From contig CAIIXF020000005.1 in assembly GCA_903813345.2 (NCBI GenBank), positions 13,519,375 to 13,583,374 of the forward strand: a stretch of DNA of 64,000 bases, written 5' to 3'. The notes beneath the pieces were generated by a model. That model searched no databases. It was not told the DNA's origin and worked only from the letters and a program-made list of their open reading frames with translations. Source of the DNA: Owenia fusiformis. Taxonomy: Eukaryota > Annelida > Polychaeta > Sabellida > Oweniidae. The translations under genes were made by a program, and so were the position numbers. Each line of letters begins with the position of its first letter. Within the stretch, counting starts at the first letter, position 1. This document shows, one piece after another, positions 49,897 through 59,833 of the stretch.

Positions 49897-50509
49897 ATAT
49901 GAGACCTTTAATAACTATTCATACATAGCTAGACCAAAGTGTCTAATTCCAACCAAATCGAACACAGTATTCCATATAACTGTACTGCATTATATAACCA
50001 ATAACTCACCCAAGGTCATTCGTTAAATGGTTGTCAAGGTGACAACTTGACTTTACAGATTGAAATTGATGCTTTGCCAACTTGACCATTGCAAAAAGTC
50101 TTTCTGAAAATATGTTCTTTTAGTGATGTCGAATCTCGTAGGTGATTCCGTTGAAAATATTTTGCAATGAGTGAATTTTAAGCCCAAGACTTGATACACT
50201 GTGGCTGAGACTGAGAGACTAAAAATGGTTTCTACAACTGCGCATAAGTATTAACGTTTGCTTCGAGGTTTAATGAATGCGTTGAAATCGTAATGGAATA
50301 AAATCTATGTGAAAATAGTTTGTCACATCTCAATAAATATGATTTAATTAATAATACCGAAAATAGTTCATAATATTGCAGTAAATGATAAATCTGTTCG
50401 CCTTATTGCAAATCTTTACATGCCTCACGCGTCGATTACAATCTGACAGAATACTGCAAGTTTGTATTTTACTGCAAGTCATCGCTTTATTCTCTCGGGA
50501 GGTATTTCT

Positions 50510-50857
50510 TATAATGCCATGGAAAAAGGTTATCTCCAAAGAACTCTCATATGGAGAAATCATGCTTTTCGTCAAATGTCAATTTTATACCCAACCCTGC
50601 AGTTGATCACGTTTTTATTATTGCACGTTGAATTGCGGTTGTTTTTATATCCAATAGCACGCGTTTTGAATTTTGCACGTCAACGTCTAGTTTGGTTTTT
50701 AACGATTTAATGTCCGGTGTATTGATTGTTCCTTCTAATGTCATGGAAAAACTGTCTCACAAGAACTCCATTCTAAAGAAATCATGCTTCCCGTCAAGTT
50801 CAATTTTATACCCAACCCTGCAGTTGATCACGTTTTTATTATTGCACGTCAATAGCC
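50510..50857. repeat. Tandem duplication of flanking sequence, second copy split by the big transposon
   Basis: The block with CATGGAAAAA, CAATTTTATACCCAACCCTG and TGATCACGTTTTTATTATTG occurs at about 50516-50624 and again at about 50741-50847. What follows the first copy (GGTTGTTTTTATATCC at about 50637) follows the second copy only after the transposon, at about 58751. Confidence 0.75.
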
Positions 50858-52133
50858 TACTCAGGGACCCAGGCTGAATATTTTGGGTATTGAATATTGG
50901 AGAGTATTACGCGAGATTTTTTCATTTTCTTGTTGGAAAATAAGTTATTTTTGTGATAGGGGGTGATATCTAGTGTTTGAGACTTGCGAAAATTAGATAT
51001 CCTCATCTTTATACCCCCACCCTATTATTTTAGGGGGGTCAGAAGGAAAATAAACTTTAATATATAACTTCGGAAGTATATAAAGTACCAACTTCATTTT
51101 TTCACCAAAATTTATAAAATGACATCAGTAATGGGGAAAAAAATATTTTGAAACAAAAAAAGCTAATTTGCATAATTTAACCCTTAAACCGCCATAAAAA
51201 CGGTTAAATGGCGGAGTGATGATGCATAATTTTTACTGTAATTGCCTTCATATGATGTTATAACTTATGAAATAATTCCTAAAAATGCATTCATATATGT
51301 ATAACAGATGTGCAAAATATAAAAAGTGTAACTTACATAACGATTGTGAAAAAAATTAATCCCCAACCCAGATATTCGGGGGGGGGGGTCAAATTAACAT
51401 GAACTTATTTCGTAAGTTTGGAACCATATAAGATACAAGTATAATTTTTTCACCAAAATAACATCAGTAATTTAGAAAAGTTATTTTGATATGCAAATAA
51501 GCTAATTTGCACAATTTAACCCTTAAACAGTTATAAAACTGTTAAATGACAAAGTGATAATATACGACATTTACTGTAATTGACTTCCTATGAAGTTATA
51601 ACTTATGAGATAATTGCAAGAAATATATTTTCATGGGGTATGCACAATATAAAAAGAGTATCTTGTATAATGATAGCAAAAAGAATCTTACACCCTACTC
51701 CAATATTTTGAGAAGGGGGGGGGGGGGTTAATGAAAATAAACTTTAATTTTTAACTTTGAAATCGTATAAGATAAAACTTAGAAATCGCATCAAGAAATG
51801 TTAGGTGGGGACAATGCTATATTTCAATATAAAAACAAACTATTTTGCATAATTTAACCTTTAAACAGTCATGAAAATCATTATGAGGCAAAGTGGTTCT
51901 ATACTTAAACTGACTTAACATGAAGTTATAACTTTGACAATATATCCTCTCTCAATAATAGTAACTTGCAGTGTTTCAGAATAATTCTTAAAAAGGTTAC
52001 CATAAATTACCACAAATTCAGACTTGTATTGAACCATATTCATAGTCACTGTCAATTGTTAGGACTGATGTGATATTCTAGTTTGGAGATATTTGGTGCA
52101 GTGAAAATTTCATATCTCTTTTGGTTAATCCAC

Positions 52134-55100
52134 TTATTCCCTTCCACACTCACTTTCCTTTGAGCCGCATGAACATGCAGCTAAACATTCTGTACCTGCA
52201 GTGGCACATGGGCAAGTGGTTAAACATAATGCTTTACCCTTGTATCGTTTGCACGCGCAATTTGACTTTGGGATTTTTGTCATATCAGGTTTTGGTTTTT
52301 TGGTCATTTTAATGGTCTGAAGAGTACCATCAACCACTTGACGTCCAAATCCATTCCACGGTTCTGGGATCTCAAAAAGAGGCTTGTCTGCATTTTTTGA
52401 AATGTATAATTGATATAAACCCCTGCTTGCATGATGCAAAAATGCATCTTCAGTTGGTGGTAACGTTCTGATGTCATTTTTGGATCCTGCAAACAGGTGT
52501 TCTCGTAATACATCCAAAGATTTGAAGGCTGGTTTGTTATAAAGAGATGTTATGATGAGTCTAACATCCCGTATAACCTCGTCGGTTATCTCCCAGCCTT
52601 CTTCACCATAGTTTGCAATTGATTCAAGCTTGTTCTCCCTGATAAGGGTCAGAGCAACTTTAAAAGCCTTCTTTTTCCCCTTGCTGAAGATATGGCTCAC
52701 TGTATCACACCCTGTCACTATATACACTGCTAGCAAGCAGGATGCAATGTGTTTGGCTGTTTTGTTTAATTTGCAACTAATTTCCCAAATAAGGGAATGT
52801 ATGGGAATGAAATTCCCCATTCTGTGAATCCATAATTCTGTAGTTTTGCATTTGATATAGTGATACAAGCACATCATTACCACATCTGTGTCATCAGATT
52901 GTACAACGATTCTCTGAATGTGGAAGCTGTCTACACATACCTTAATGTGGGACATGATGCGAGTATCTGCTTCTTCATGGTCAGCACAGTCAAGTTCAGG
53001 CATTTCATTTACAGACTCTGATGTTATTGCTATTGTCTTTGTTGAACTCTTAGATGTGCCTCCCATTACTAGTGTAACTGGACCCAGTTTTTCTCTCTGT
53101 TCCTGTTTCTGCCATTCTGTTGTCAGATAATCCAAAAGATTTACCTTTGATTTCTCATTGGCCATAAGTTTAACCCAAGAGGGAAGCATGACACCATTGG
53201 CAGGCACATATTCTGCTGCTTTCATTTTGGATCTTTTTTCCCGCTCTTCGTGTTTCAAACTTTTCTCAGGACCAAAATCATAGCGATCTCCAATGAAATG
53301 GATTAGCATGCATCCAGCTGGTTTCATTTGTAATATTTTCTCAATGTAAACATCCCTCAAGTCTTCATAGGTGCCCGCACCAAGATTTCGAAATCGCTGT
53401 ATAAAGGCCATGCCATCGACAATGAGAGCACTGTTGATTTCTGATGCTGGGAGGTGGTAGGTTTCTTCTAGATTTGAAAATTTGGCTAGTTCTTTGAAGT
53501 AGTCACTCTTACACCCCTTTCGCATTTTTATAGTACTGTTTTGTGGGTCAGGCTCAAACAGGGAAGATGGGTAATGTGTCCATTCATGGCTAAATGATTC
53601 AGTCCTCACTTCTCGCCTTTTGTCACCAGCTACAAAACACAGGGAACGAGTTACAGAAGTCTCATCTTCATATATCTTTTTAATGTGTACTTTTTTCTTT
53701 GATTTCATTGGTTCAGCAAAAGGTGTGACTGTAGGAGAAGTTATTTTGTTGTGATTGTTCTGTCTGGCTTGTTCAATGGCTTCTATACCCTTTTCACTGG
53801 CAAAGGCTAGACTCGTATCAGGGGATTTCTGCCCAGTTGATATATTGATAAGGGCTTCCTCATTGTCTGAGAATGGATTTATCATCTCGGCTTTGATCAT
53901 AGTCTTGATTCTTGATATAATGACCATTTCTTCTTTGGCAGTACTATTACTTGAGAACTTCTGCTCACCATCCATGTGTGCCATTGATTTTACATTGTCT
54001 GCTGCACCTGTCATGAATGGCACAGACCTGATGTATTTCTCTCTAGCATTTGTGTTGAGACTTACTCCCTTGAATAGTGAAGTTTTGCCTTCTCTATTGT
54101 AAGTTTGTTCTAACCCCATGTCAGTCCAAACTCCATTAAATTTACCTTTAGACTGTCTCACATTGAACTTGCCTTCTAGGAATTGAAGGTATGTCGCTGG
54201 GTGTGTTGTAGGGAGTTGTCTCATCTCATGTAGATATTGTGGCAAACATGCCATGTAATTGTGATGTTTTGCTGCAACCACAATAGGTATCATTTTCTCC
54301 ACTTCATTCAGATGCTGCTCCCATATTCCTTTGCGTTCAGCCTCGATGTACCCAAGGATGATTGCCACCATATCAATGTATGAGTTCCAGTATTTCCCGG
54401 TAGTAGACAGAGTTTGGGTAAAATCTTTCCACAGTTGATTTATATCAGTGGATTGTACAAACTCCATAATAGTGTGAAGGTTCTCCTCTGACACAAGCTC
54501 TGCAAACTCACATAGATGATCTGCCAAACCACTTAATACATCAGTATTACCATTCTGCTCAAGCCAATGCTCAAATGCCTCCCATTTCAAGCTAAAGAAT
54601 GCTTCTCCAACAATTGAATGGCATCTTACCATCTTGTAGTAATCACCCCCTGCTATAACCTTGTTTGCTGTTCCTCTCTTACAAAGTTCAGACTTTTCTA
54701 TTATATCTTCCAGTCCACTGTCTTTCATCAGTCTTCCAACAGCTCCCATGTAGTTTGAAAGAATATGAAATCCTCCTAGTCGCTTAACAATCCTACCATA
54801 TTTCATTGGGAACTTGGCAGCAAGTGCTTTGACTATATCATAAATTGCTTGATCAGCAGTTACAACGACATCCCGATTCTCTAGGAAGGCTGCACTTTCT
54901 ATGCAATAATCAAGTGATTTCTGAACAATGTCAGGATTGGTTGGTGATTCTGGAAAGCATGGACCATATCCTTGAATCGTTGCCTCTAGAATAGGATTTA
55001 GATCTTTGTTCATTTCCTTCCAGGTAAATTGTGATGTGTGGTCAGCTGGTAAAAGGTTTGTTGGTATCAGCCTTGTCAGCATGAATATGATATTAGCATC

Positions 55101-57254
55101 ATCTAACCTGTGTACCAGTGAATCACGTGTCAAGTTAGGGAACATTTCCTGATCCAACAGTCTAGTCTTCCTTCGATCCTTAATACCAACAAAGGACATA
55201 TCTGCTCTAAAGGGTTGAGGAGTCTCTACAGTCACCTTGCGTGTTCTTTGGCTTGGTATTATTGTGACAGGGTCTTCAGTCGGGTTTACATTGTCACCAT
55301 ACTGATAAAGTATATGTGTTGTTGCATTCAAAGTAGTCCCATCTTTGGTGTTCTCCTGAAAATTCAGGTTATCAAAAGCAAATTGTGTAAAGCTACCTAC
55401 TTTCATGTTTTGAGGAATGAAAACACCTGCTATTTGAGTATTTTCATTTGCCTGATCTGCAGCATTTGTAATAACTCTTTGAACATCATTGTAGCCTGCG
55501 CTGTTACCAAACCTGTTTAACAATGTTATGATATCTTTACTGCGAGTTTGCTTGAAAACATAGAGACCTATGCCAATATGTTTTGGTATTGTGGTTGATA
55601 TTCCTAAGGTGCTACCCATGATGTCTTGACAGACATTAAGAACCCTTTCATGCAACATTTGATCTAATTCAACACGCCCAGACTTTGAAAATTCACAGTT
55701 AGTGATTAAATATGCTACATGATTATACAAGTCTGTGGTAACAAGTCTGTTTGCACAGTCATAAGATATCATTGATTCAGATGTGGAATTCACAACTTTT
55801 GTATGGTCTCTTAGTCCAGCTTGGATTGATTTAGCCACATGGTAAGATTCACGATCGAGGTTTGTAACTGACTCAGCCTCCCCTTGTTCTTCTATAGCTA
55901 TTTCAACATCATTGTCAGTAGATTCTGAAAACATGAACATGAATATGTCAAATGAGTTTTACACTCCTATTTATAGGTATCTTAGCTAAATAAAAAAGAT
56001 TTATATGTTTCGACAATGATGGTCTACAACAAGCTGTTTATCCAATAAAATCAGAATTTAGATAACATTCTGGTTGAAAAACTTCCAATTTAGGAAAAGA
56101 CCAACAATGGTTTAATTATATATTATATATCATTGAATGGAATTATGTCAAAAAAAGAAATGAATTAGGTAATATCATGCAAAAAGTCACCTGCCATTTG
56201 TAACAGATGCTGACTGCTGAACACCAACTGGAAAACTCTGACCAATAGAGACTATAACAAAAAACTGATTGAATCAAAGTATAAACATACCATCACTCCC
56301 ATTTGTAGCATCCACATCATCACTCAGTGCATGCCTCACAGTATCCAGCTCGTTATATGATAGATCAGCAAGCGTAACAACAAATGATTTATTCTTCCCA
56401 AACAAATAATGGAAAGATAGTACATCACTCCCAAAATGTGCTAACAAACGGGATTTCATATTACCATTGGTATATGCCATTCCTCCATCAACTCCACAAA
56501 GTTCCATATAATGCTGATATTGTTCAGTTATTTTATCAATGAAAATACCTTCTTTTTTCTTTAAGACTGGATAGATTTTTTCAAGTAGCAGTTCAAATGC
56601 AGAGTCTAATTTACTGGTACTTCCTTTAGGAACCTTGCTTGTTTCAGGCTTTTGATTCATGAATTTCACCATACATAGCTTATGATAACTAAAGTCGTCT
56701 GCAATCAAATCTGCACATTCGTTTCCATGACCTTGTATTCGTATCAATAATTTTTCATCTTGAATAAGTTTTGCTTGATTATGAATTCTGACTTGCTTTT
56801 CGGATTCTGCAACTTTATACATGGTACGGGACCCCTTTCTGTCTCTTTCCTTTTCACATAGGAAACAGACTTGTTTCTTAGATTTCAGTTTGGTTGACTC
56901 TCTACTAATAGTCTTGCCTAACATACTTGGTGACGTTTTCCCATCGTTATTTTCATTAACTTGCTCAGTTGATTTTCTTCGCTTTGGCACAGTAATCTTG
57001 ACATTGATTTCATCAAGGTGTCTTTTCAGGGTAAACACAGAGTAACATGTCTTGTGGTACATAGGAGTCATTGCCAAGAATCCAGTTTTGTTGTCAATAT
57101 GAGAATTCTGGAGCCTCTCATATATCTCAGTGTTTTCATGTTTTCTTATATCCAAAGCATGATTAAAAGTATCATAGCCTTTTGATGTTAAATGCCTCAA
57201 AGGTTCATTGTCCGCTCGACTCTCCTGACAAATAATGCATTTTGTAGGGTCCAT
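52134..57254 (-). CDS. Transposon-encoded protein: zinc knuckles, DDE-like region, XPG/FEN1-like nuclease, CXC tail
   Basis: Two exons, 56291-57254 and 52134-55924, join as AGTGATG|GTATGT ... TTTTCAG|AATCT to give 1584 residues without interruption. The N-terminus has two similar Cys/His units, CIICQ...YHKTC (from residue 6) and CFLCEK...YHKLC (about 129-194). In exon 2, VTADQAIYDIV, LGGFHILSNYMGAVGRLMK and GEAFFSLKWEAF look like the catalytic stretch of an RNase-H-fold DDE transposase. Further on, IVDGMAF, FIGDRYDFG, EADTRIMSH, QSDDTDVVM and TGCDTVSHIFSKGKK match the acidic-motif order of XPG/FEN1-type nucleases. The last 45 residues hold a CACKR...CLTTCPC...CLAACSC array like tesmin/TSO1 CXC DNA-binding domains. 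Likely role: cutting and joining the element's own ends, with the Cys regions contacting DNA (inference). Confidence 0.8.
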
Positions 57255-58000
57255 TATTTAAAGTGTGGAACTTGCCATAGTTTATCTTGATTCTGGATAG
57301 TCCATAATATCTGCATAGAACCTGAAATAAGGTATCAACGTGTTCTTGTTACCCATTGTATACATGTAGACCATTGTATATGGCATCAATGGTTGTCAAT
57401 GTACACATTTCTCAAACCATGATCTAACATCAATCATTAAACGATTCATATTGTATATATTATTCATATATATATATTCAAATTGCAATTTGACACACAA
57501 ACCTATCATGGCCAGATTCTGCCATCTACTTGAGTCATTTAAGCCACTCATAACAACAACTCGTACTCATTTCATTCTGTTTTAAACATCACATAAAATT
57601 CAGATCTTAAATCATCAAAGTGATTATTATTCGAAAATACAGAATGGCATAAGGTATCCATATCATAGGAGGCACAAGGGATGCACTTGAGAAAGAAGAA
57701 AATGATACAAATGTTGACTAGAAGTAGAGAACATACCTGATAATAAAGGTACATCCAACAGTGACTTCCTGCATGATGACTGCTGGGGAGTGTCAAAGAC
57801 ACCATACAGTATCTACTCTTTTAAAACAAGTTATGACAGGACACTGACTGTTTCTATGTGAGCTACATTAGGCATGCAGTTTGATTAAATAATATAACCA
57901 GTTTAATTAACTGTTAGCAATTATAAACAAGTGCAAATCTACATGATAGCAGCAATGCATATCTCTTATCTCCTTTGTTAAAGCAAGGGAAGTCAATTTA
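57255..58000. other. Leader region of the transposon gene
   Basis: Between the start codon of the transposon protein and the right subterminal repeats. Probably promoter and 5' UTR. No recognisable coding exon. Confidence 0.4.
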
Positions 58001-58735
58001 AAAAATGTGGTAGATTATCACTTTGCGGATAAACAGTTTTATGACCATTTATGGATTACATTATGCAAATTAGCTTATTGTTATATCAAAACAGTTTTCA
58101 TCCATTTATGATGTCATGGCATAAATTTTGGTGACGAAATTAAGTTTGTATCTTATATGGTTCCAAACTTATGAACGAAGTTCATTTTCAATTGACCCCC
58201 CCCTCAAATATCTGGGTTGGGGAGTATTTTTTTTCACAGTCGTTATGTAAGATACACTTCTTATATTTTGCACATCTGTTATACATACATGGATGCATTT
58301 ATAGGAATTATTTCATAAGTTATAACATCATATGAAGGCAATTACAGTAAATGTCGTTTACAATCACTTCATCATTTTACCGTTTTTATGGCAGTTTAAG
58401 GGTTAAAATATGCAAATTAGCTTATTTTTGTAACAAAATATTTTTTTATCAATTATTGATGTTATTTTATAAATTTTGGTGAAAAAATTAAGTTTGTACC
58501 TCATATACTTTCAAAGTTATGAATTAAAGTTTATTTTCCTCCCGACCCCCCTAAAATAATAGGGTGGGGGTATAAAGATGAGGATATCTTATTTTCGCAA
58601 GTCTCAAACTCTAGATATCACCCCACATCATAAAGGCAACTTATTTTCCAACAAGAAAATGAAAAAATCTCGCGTAATACTTTCAAATATCCATTTTCAC
58701 TTTCTAGCTGTTTCTCAGAACTTGGGTCCCTGAGT

Positions 58736-59833
58736 ATGTATTGTTTTAACGGTTGTTTTTATATCCAACGGCACTTTGAATAATGCACGTAAAGTCTATT
58801 CTCATTGCACTCTTGGGTGCTATAATTGTGATCAATTTTCCGGGCGAGATGGCGGTCGGTCGGTCGGTTTCCAGCCAAACCGTTTCAGGGATCCATCTGA
58901 AATCTTTGGGGATGTTTCTTAGTATGAAGGTCTACAACTGATTAGTTTTGGGGCATTTTGGGGTAAATGTTAGGGGTGGGAGGTGGGAGGGAGGGTTCAA
59001 GCACCCCCTTGCAAAAGCTGGCTAAGGGCCTAATACACACCATGTTTCTAGTCTAATTATTTTAAAGGTTTGTTGGTAGTGCAATATCTCTTTCATAGCA
59101 ATCCTAATCAGTAAATTGGGGAATAATATAAATAAAATGTCAATGGAACGATTGTTAAAATTGTGCTTTTCTCAATTATTTTTTATCCCTCTGTCTGGTA
59201 TTTCATTTTTGTTAATATACTTTGAGTGATTCCGCATATGTCAATAAATGTTCAGATGTCTATATAGTTTAGATTCATCACATTTATTGTTTTTATAAAG
59301 CAGTATTTCATTAACAATTCGGTTTATTATACCCTCCGGACCCAATTGTAGATTTCTTCATTAATTTTTATGGTACACTGCTGAATATAATATTAAACAT
59401 AGTACTATGTTCCAAGTTTAATTATTTCCCTCCAATATACAGTATACACTTACGTATTACTGTATGGCAAAACGGGATAAATAATATTATATATTTTATT
59501 TCCCCAAAAAATATTTAGAGAAATATAATTTTCATAGTAATCAAAAGTTGAGAGACCCGAAGCAAACATATAATAAACTATCAACGATTTTTGTGTTGTT
59601 AACTTTTTATTCTCCTTTATTAACTATTTTGAAAATGATTTTTGGTCACTATGGCAACTGCTTTTTTTAAAGTTAAGATTTTCAAAGGGATAGTCTTTAA
59701 GGAGTTAATTAAATGCCATTAAATGTTGCCTTATCTTTGTAAATGTCATAAAAAAAAATCGAAAAACTAAAAATATGAGAACTTTATGACTACCCCTCCT
59801 ATAGTAAGTTATTTAATTCTAACGTTATTTCAG
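58736..59833. other. Intergenic, no firm gene
   Basis: Starts with the continuation of the split tandem copy (GGTTGTTTTTATATCC). A GGTC microsatellite with GATGGCGGTCGGTCGG at about 58848 opens a dispersed-looking repeat. Confidence 0.4.

Follow-up and report, generated by a model that had tools for sequence, protein, structure and literature searches.

The Academ superfamily of DNA transposons and its AcademX lineage were reportedly described by Kapitonov and Jurka in 2010 and by Kojima in 2020, and the nuclease encoded by AcademX elements is of the XPG type. According to the portions of the published accounts cited here, Academ is counted among the DDD/E superfamilies in Repbase (PMC9587614), curated Academ elements of bivalves average 5.6 kb (PMC10294476), and AcademX elements produce a target-site duplication (TSD) of 3 or 4 bp as opposed to 9 or 10 bp in AcademH, a difference tied to the encoded nuclease versus helicase (PMC10045372). 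In this work we analyzed a window of 64,000 nucleotides from the annelid Owenia fusiformis (contig CAIIXF020000005.1, C5:13519375-13583374) within a genome of 498 Mb and 525 contigs, in which all copy searches were performed. The window contains a whole transposon of 7879 bp, TACTCAGGGACCCA...TGGGTCCCTGAGTA, at window positions 50858..58736. This element is very probably a complete Academ-superfamily DNA transposon that has moved recently, placed in the AcademX (nuclease) lineage by published description because its 3-bp TSD and its nuclease match what the cited portion of that description gives for AcademX (PMC10045372). As judged without comparison to Repbase entries, it represents a new family within a known superfamily.

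The first 14 bases of the element, TACTCAGGGACCCA, recur inverted at its opposite end, and both ends are common to the sampled copies. Each end was used in a DNA search, in which the best 40 of 111 and the best 40 of 107 first-look candidates were scored, so the copy counts are lower bounds. A match was found at all 40 scored places for either end, which excludes chance. Altogether at least 33 pairs of ends were recovered, comprising the window copy, a second full-length copy on contig C483 and 31 others; many genomic copies thus have the same ends, and the outcome named in the preliminary description as refuting it, an absence of other such copies, did not arise. Target sites were examined at both ends in 14 of the 33 pairs, and all 14 have a TA directly outside CTYAGGG. 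Outside this TA, an exact 3-bp direct repeat was found in 12 of the 14 copies (AAT, TAC, ATT, ATA, GAT, AAT, TAT, ATA, TAT, CTC, GGA and TAC), compared with 10 of 182 mismatched combinations of left and right ends.

The transposase gene lies on the minus strand and consists of two exons joined across a predicted GT-AG intron, with 1584 codons uninterrupted by a stop, in agreement with the preliminary description. Exon 1 (56291..57254) carries the start codon and two Cys/His modules that by eye resemble zinc-binding ones, and is similar to the N-terminal parts of five related loci (L012, L014, L015, L021 and L031). The predicted intron of 366 bp (55925..56290) has its GT at 56290 and an AG ending at 55925, and exon 2 (52134..55924) encodes the transposase core, the FEN1/XPG-like nuclease and a C-terminal Cys-rich tail (CXC-like, by eye) that ends in the stop codon. 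By comparison with its relatives the two-exon model appears sound, since in L012 and L014 a single unbroken open reading frame (ORF) covers both the N- and the C-terminal part, aligning to the spliced product over residues 6-1574 and 2-1574, respectively.

A protein search of the genome with exon 2 listed 42 matches (best 37 of 553 candidates), and twelve proteins from the matched loci were chosen for an alignment. Besides the two full copies, open frames of 1400 amino acids (aa) or more, free of stops within the match, occur at no fewer than 14 further places; the genome therefore holds many long open Academ-like frames. Based on conservation in the twelve-protein alignment, a putative RNase H-like D/D/E core (54108..55373, minus strand) was assigned by eye to D506, D679 and E927, of which the latter two are invariant and D506 is nearly so (the L011 protein does not cover it). 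The putative FEN1/XPG-like nuclease domain (52674..53417, minus strand) is defined by D1158, D1201, E1306, D1308, D1333, D1335 and D1395, all seven of them invariant in the twelve proteins, and by motifs that read, in order, IVDGMA, GDRY...SLKHEEREKR, HEEADTRI, SDDTDV and TGCD in the window protein. For comparison we used a profile of human FEN1 and 20 archaeal FEN1 proteins (53 loci, 23 chosen, three dropped for internal stops). With hhalign, the motifs align in order with FEN1 D34, D86 (together with K93 and R100), the E158/E160 region, D179/D181 and D233, at a score of 28.3, while 40 column shuffles reached no more than 20.8. A further profile comparison, with exons from four XPG-family genes of the host, yielded P=0.0003 and a probability of 39.6%. 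One host XPG-family gene (L066), read as EXO1, spells EAD, DxD and GCD as the transposase does. The argument for a FEN1/XPG-like nuclease is carried by this motif order, not by the hhalign score; no Pfam XPG match was obtained.

Several results weigh against the assignment of the element to AcademX. In the comparison with FEN1, hhalign assigned a low probability (6%), the alignment puts the E158/E160 pair off register by two residues, and a score of 29.0 was reached by one of the two control regions, though over only 32 columns. Neither exon has a significant match in Pfam (best E 0.082), including to a helicase; exon 2 found nothing convincing among PDB sequences (best E 0.94); and the best PDB match of the twelve-protein profile, a DnaA domain at 0.0072, was judged to be due to chance. 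AlphaFold modeling of the 316-aa nuclease region from a single sequence returned no usable model, with a predicted local distance difference test score (pLDDT) of 36.7. Finally, among the 14 copies read at both ends, the window copy and one other (L004) are without any TSD. When Pfam was searched with all twelve proteins, 14 families were matched by one protein each, the best being DUF6589 (PF20231), to which L015 has a weak match (E=1e-4, below the cut-off of that family), followed by one at 0.013. Viral contigs were scanned with the single protein as well, a search sensitive to close relatives only, and gave no match.

A separate superfamily, having only the 3-bp TSD and a FEN1-like nuclease in common with AcademX, would be consistent with the lack of a significant Pfam or PDB match for the window protein and of a convincing one for the twelve-protein alignment, and also with the fact that the link to Academ rests on a description rather than on comparison with Repbase Academ proteins. 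We regard this as improbable, given that the window family has the combination of nuclease and 3-4 bp TSD stated for AcademX in the cited portion of the source (PMC10045372), and that two related families of the same genome with readable TSDs also have 3-bp ones (ACA at L011; TAG at L029 and TAC at L031). For the L013/L014 family a TSD was sought and none was fixed. With AcademX, the window family shares the 3-bp TSD, a long multidomain transposase, conserved D/D/E residues, an XPG-like nuclease and inverted repeats, whereas its TACTYAGGGACCC ends, five subterminal units and one intron are its own. AcademH belongs to the same superfamily but, in the portion of the account cited, has a helicase and a 9-10 bp TSD (PMC10045372), in contrast to the 3-bp TSD and the absence of a Pfam helicase match in the window family. 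Compared with FEN1, XPG, EXO1 and GEN1, the order of acidic residues is alike, as are the EAD, DxD and GCD spellings in the case of the presumed EXO1 gene; however, the nuclease of the window element is embedded in a transposase, and the similarity is too weak for Pfam. Taken as an Academ-like element with an XPG-type nuclease, as originally proposed, the transposon fits the 3-bp TSD of 12 of the 14 copies, the empty sites described below and the invariance of the acidic residues in twelve proteins.

The second full-length copy (G000:C483:202700-210994) is flanked by a duplication of AAT. Its joined flanks, used as a query, gave 42 matches (best 40 of 194 candidates). Two of these are its own, 38 are long, and the remaining two are short matches that span the junction. 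The 38 long matches, all outside C483 and 96-98% identical, begin some 20-25 bases to the left of the junction, cross it and continue as far as the right flank extends. Three empty sites, two from this search (L123 and L125) and one from the flank of another copy (L051), were inspected letter by letter, and at the junction each of them is identical to the joined flanks, carrying AAT once and lacking the TA, so that the insertion was precise. Because the 3-bp repeats lie outside the TA and the empty sites lack it, the TA belongs to the element itself, and the target duplication comprises 3 bp. Therefore the right end of the element is at 58736 and not, as initially delimited, at 58735, while the left end at 50858 was retained. 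Tc1/mariner-like elements duplicate a 2-bp TA, and a transposon of such a TA-duplicating type is what the TA directly outside CTYAGGGACCC in all 14 pairs might suggest; we consider this very unlikely in view of the exact 3-bp duplication beyond the TA in 12 of 14 copies, and for the second copy it is refuted by the three inspected empty sites, which lack both TAs. The insertion point of the second copy is close to an end of a dispersed repeat (CATGGCGTAGAATAATGG...), for which at least 38 further long matches exist. With the joined flanks of the window insertion as the query, no match across the junction was found among the best 40 of 741 candidates.

The second copy is 99.7% identical to the window copy (15 mismatches and four gaps over 7.87 kb), and its exon 2 is likewise without a stop. 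Since its flanks differ from those of the window copy, it occupies an unrelated site, and the possibility of an allelic duplicate of the window locus was rejected. By sequence comparison, the presence of so similar a copy at a different site indicates that the family moved recently. Seven coding differences separate the two copies, five of them synonymous and two nonsynonymous (D35N and S1448Y); as few as two replacements or fewer among seven changes would arise by chance with a probability of about 0.006 (0.04 if every change is a transition), which lends modest support to selection on the transposase protein. That the locus is a domesticated gene or a single-locus relic, as the absence of a TSD at the window copy and the occurrence of exon 2 at about 100% identity at two places only (best 37 of 553 candidates) might imply, is scarcely credible given that the second copy occupies an unrelated site, has a 3-bp TSD and is matched by empty sites, and that 31 further pairs have the same ends.

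The matching ends, long inverted repeats and five subterminal units of the preliminary description were all recovered by repeat analysis. The terminal inverted repeats (TIRs), whose inner limits are approximate, extend over 50858..51588 (plus strand, including subterminal units) and 57988..58736 (minus strand). They are about 0.7 kb long and about 85% identical, with blocks at 87-90%, and thus have diverged further than the several percent initially estimated; inverted arms were found at 50891-51159/58425-58693 (269 nt, 90% identity) and 51137-51387/58196-58446 (251 nt, 87% identity). Direct repeats of five families (D1-D5) were detected in the element. Its subterminal units measure about 340 bp each, with three on the left, starting near 51155, 51494 and 51832, and two on the right, at 58037 and 58384. 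The cores of the left units 1, 2 and 3 (51155..51218, 51494..51557 and 51832..51895, plus strand) belong to family D1, and those of the right inner and outer units (58037..58109 and 58384..58456, minus strand) to families D4/D5.

Among the 31 other pairs of ends, 29 are spaced at 4.16-5.58 kb, one at 7.69 kb and one at 11.0 kb. A 4.86-kb copy, of which 4508 bp were examined, consists mostly of subterminal repeat arrays with a degraded remnant of the 3' part of the transposase, and a similar C-terminal remnant with stops is present at L035 and L038. Across 1.45-1.7 kb of their left part, the 7.69-kb copy and five others of 4.9-5.4 kb are 96-98% alike. Over the first ~45 bases of the sampled non-autonomous ends, all 12 left ends read CTTAGGGACCCAGCCTG and all 13 right ends read CTCAGGGACCCAAGTTC. 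Because these copies all differ between left and right in the same way, the difference at the extreme ends is ancestral, and TIR divergence therefore cannot date the window copy. Of the preliminary suggestion of a young element or selection on the protein, recent activity is borne out by the second copy and selection modestly by the excess of synonymous changes, while an age read from TIR divergence is unsupported. The ends of the window element are about 89-94% identical to those of the other scored copies, and for this reason a sister autonomous lineage may have driven the ~4.9-kb family.

The genome also contains related Academ-like families. One of them, with the TIR TAGTGGAATGGG, is a second recently amplified family found at six places (L029-L033 and L036) that are 98.9-99.8% alike, with 1526-aa open frames without a stop at three of the six. 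In another family (L015, L016, L017 and L023), a long tandem array, whose period is about 49 bp, lies behind the gene. An uninterrupted Academ-like ORF of 2641 aa was found on contig C11 (L069 and L068; G000:C11:14703262-14711184). Its N-terminal part resembles an SGNH hydrolase by eye; after this come a PF20231 core, XPG-like motifs and a tail rich in Cys. The C-terminal 1461 aa match PF20231 at 1.7e-12. This ORF may belong to an Academ element that carries an additional enzyme domain, and PF20231 (DUF6589) may represent the Academ transposase core. As to the surroundings of the window element, two tandem-repeat units of about 222 bp (50505-50857) adjoin its left end, and a portion of this unit is found again at 58750 in the right flank. 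Just to the right of the element (58866-58975) lies a satellite-like repeat with at least 181 genomic matches, including its own two, which is clustered elsewhere in the genome at a spacing of about 162 bp.

Beyond the directly established anatomy, copies, TSDs, precise insertion, open gene and motif order, we infer a mechanism in which the 1584-aa protein would bind the ends and the subterminal repeats via its Cys/His modules, and the RNase H-like D/D/E center would join the ends to target DNA with a 3-bp stagger, whose repair would leave the 3-bp duplication outside TACTYAGGG.... The FEN1/XPG-like nuclease would cut the other strand or trim 5' flaps, either during excision or after joining. 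The window protein, or that of a sister lineage, would mobilize the ~4.9-kb derivatives with common ends in trans. A literature search for Academ with XPG gave results that were off topic by title, and we know of no experimental work on Academ transposition, although no literature search was aimed at that question.

It is a tentative proposal, and a rather doubtful one, that the family is active today with a transposase of two catalytic centers, a D/D/E one for strand transfer and a FEN1/XPG-like one for cleavage of the second strand or of flaps. If true, eukaryotic cut-and-paste transposition would here take an unusual route that uses two nucleases, and the intact copy would make this testable. 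Together with its near-identical sister, the exact empty sites and a large non-autonomous family, the intact copy provides a defined test system for the role of the XPG-like nuclease, and the window element is a good candidate for laboratory study.

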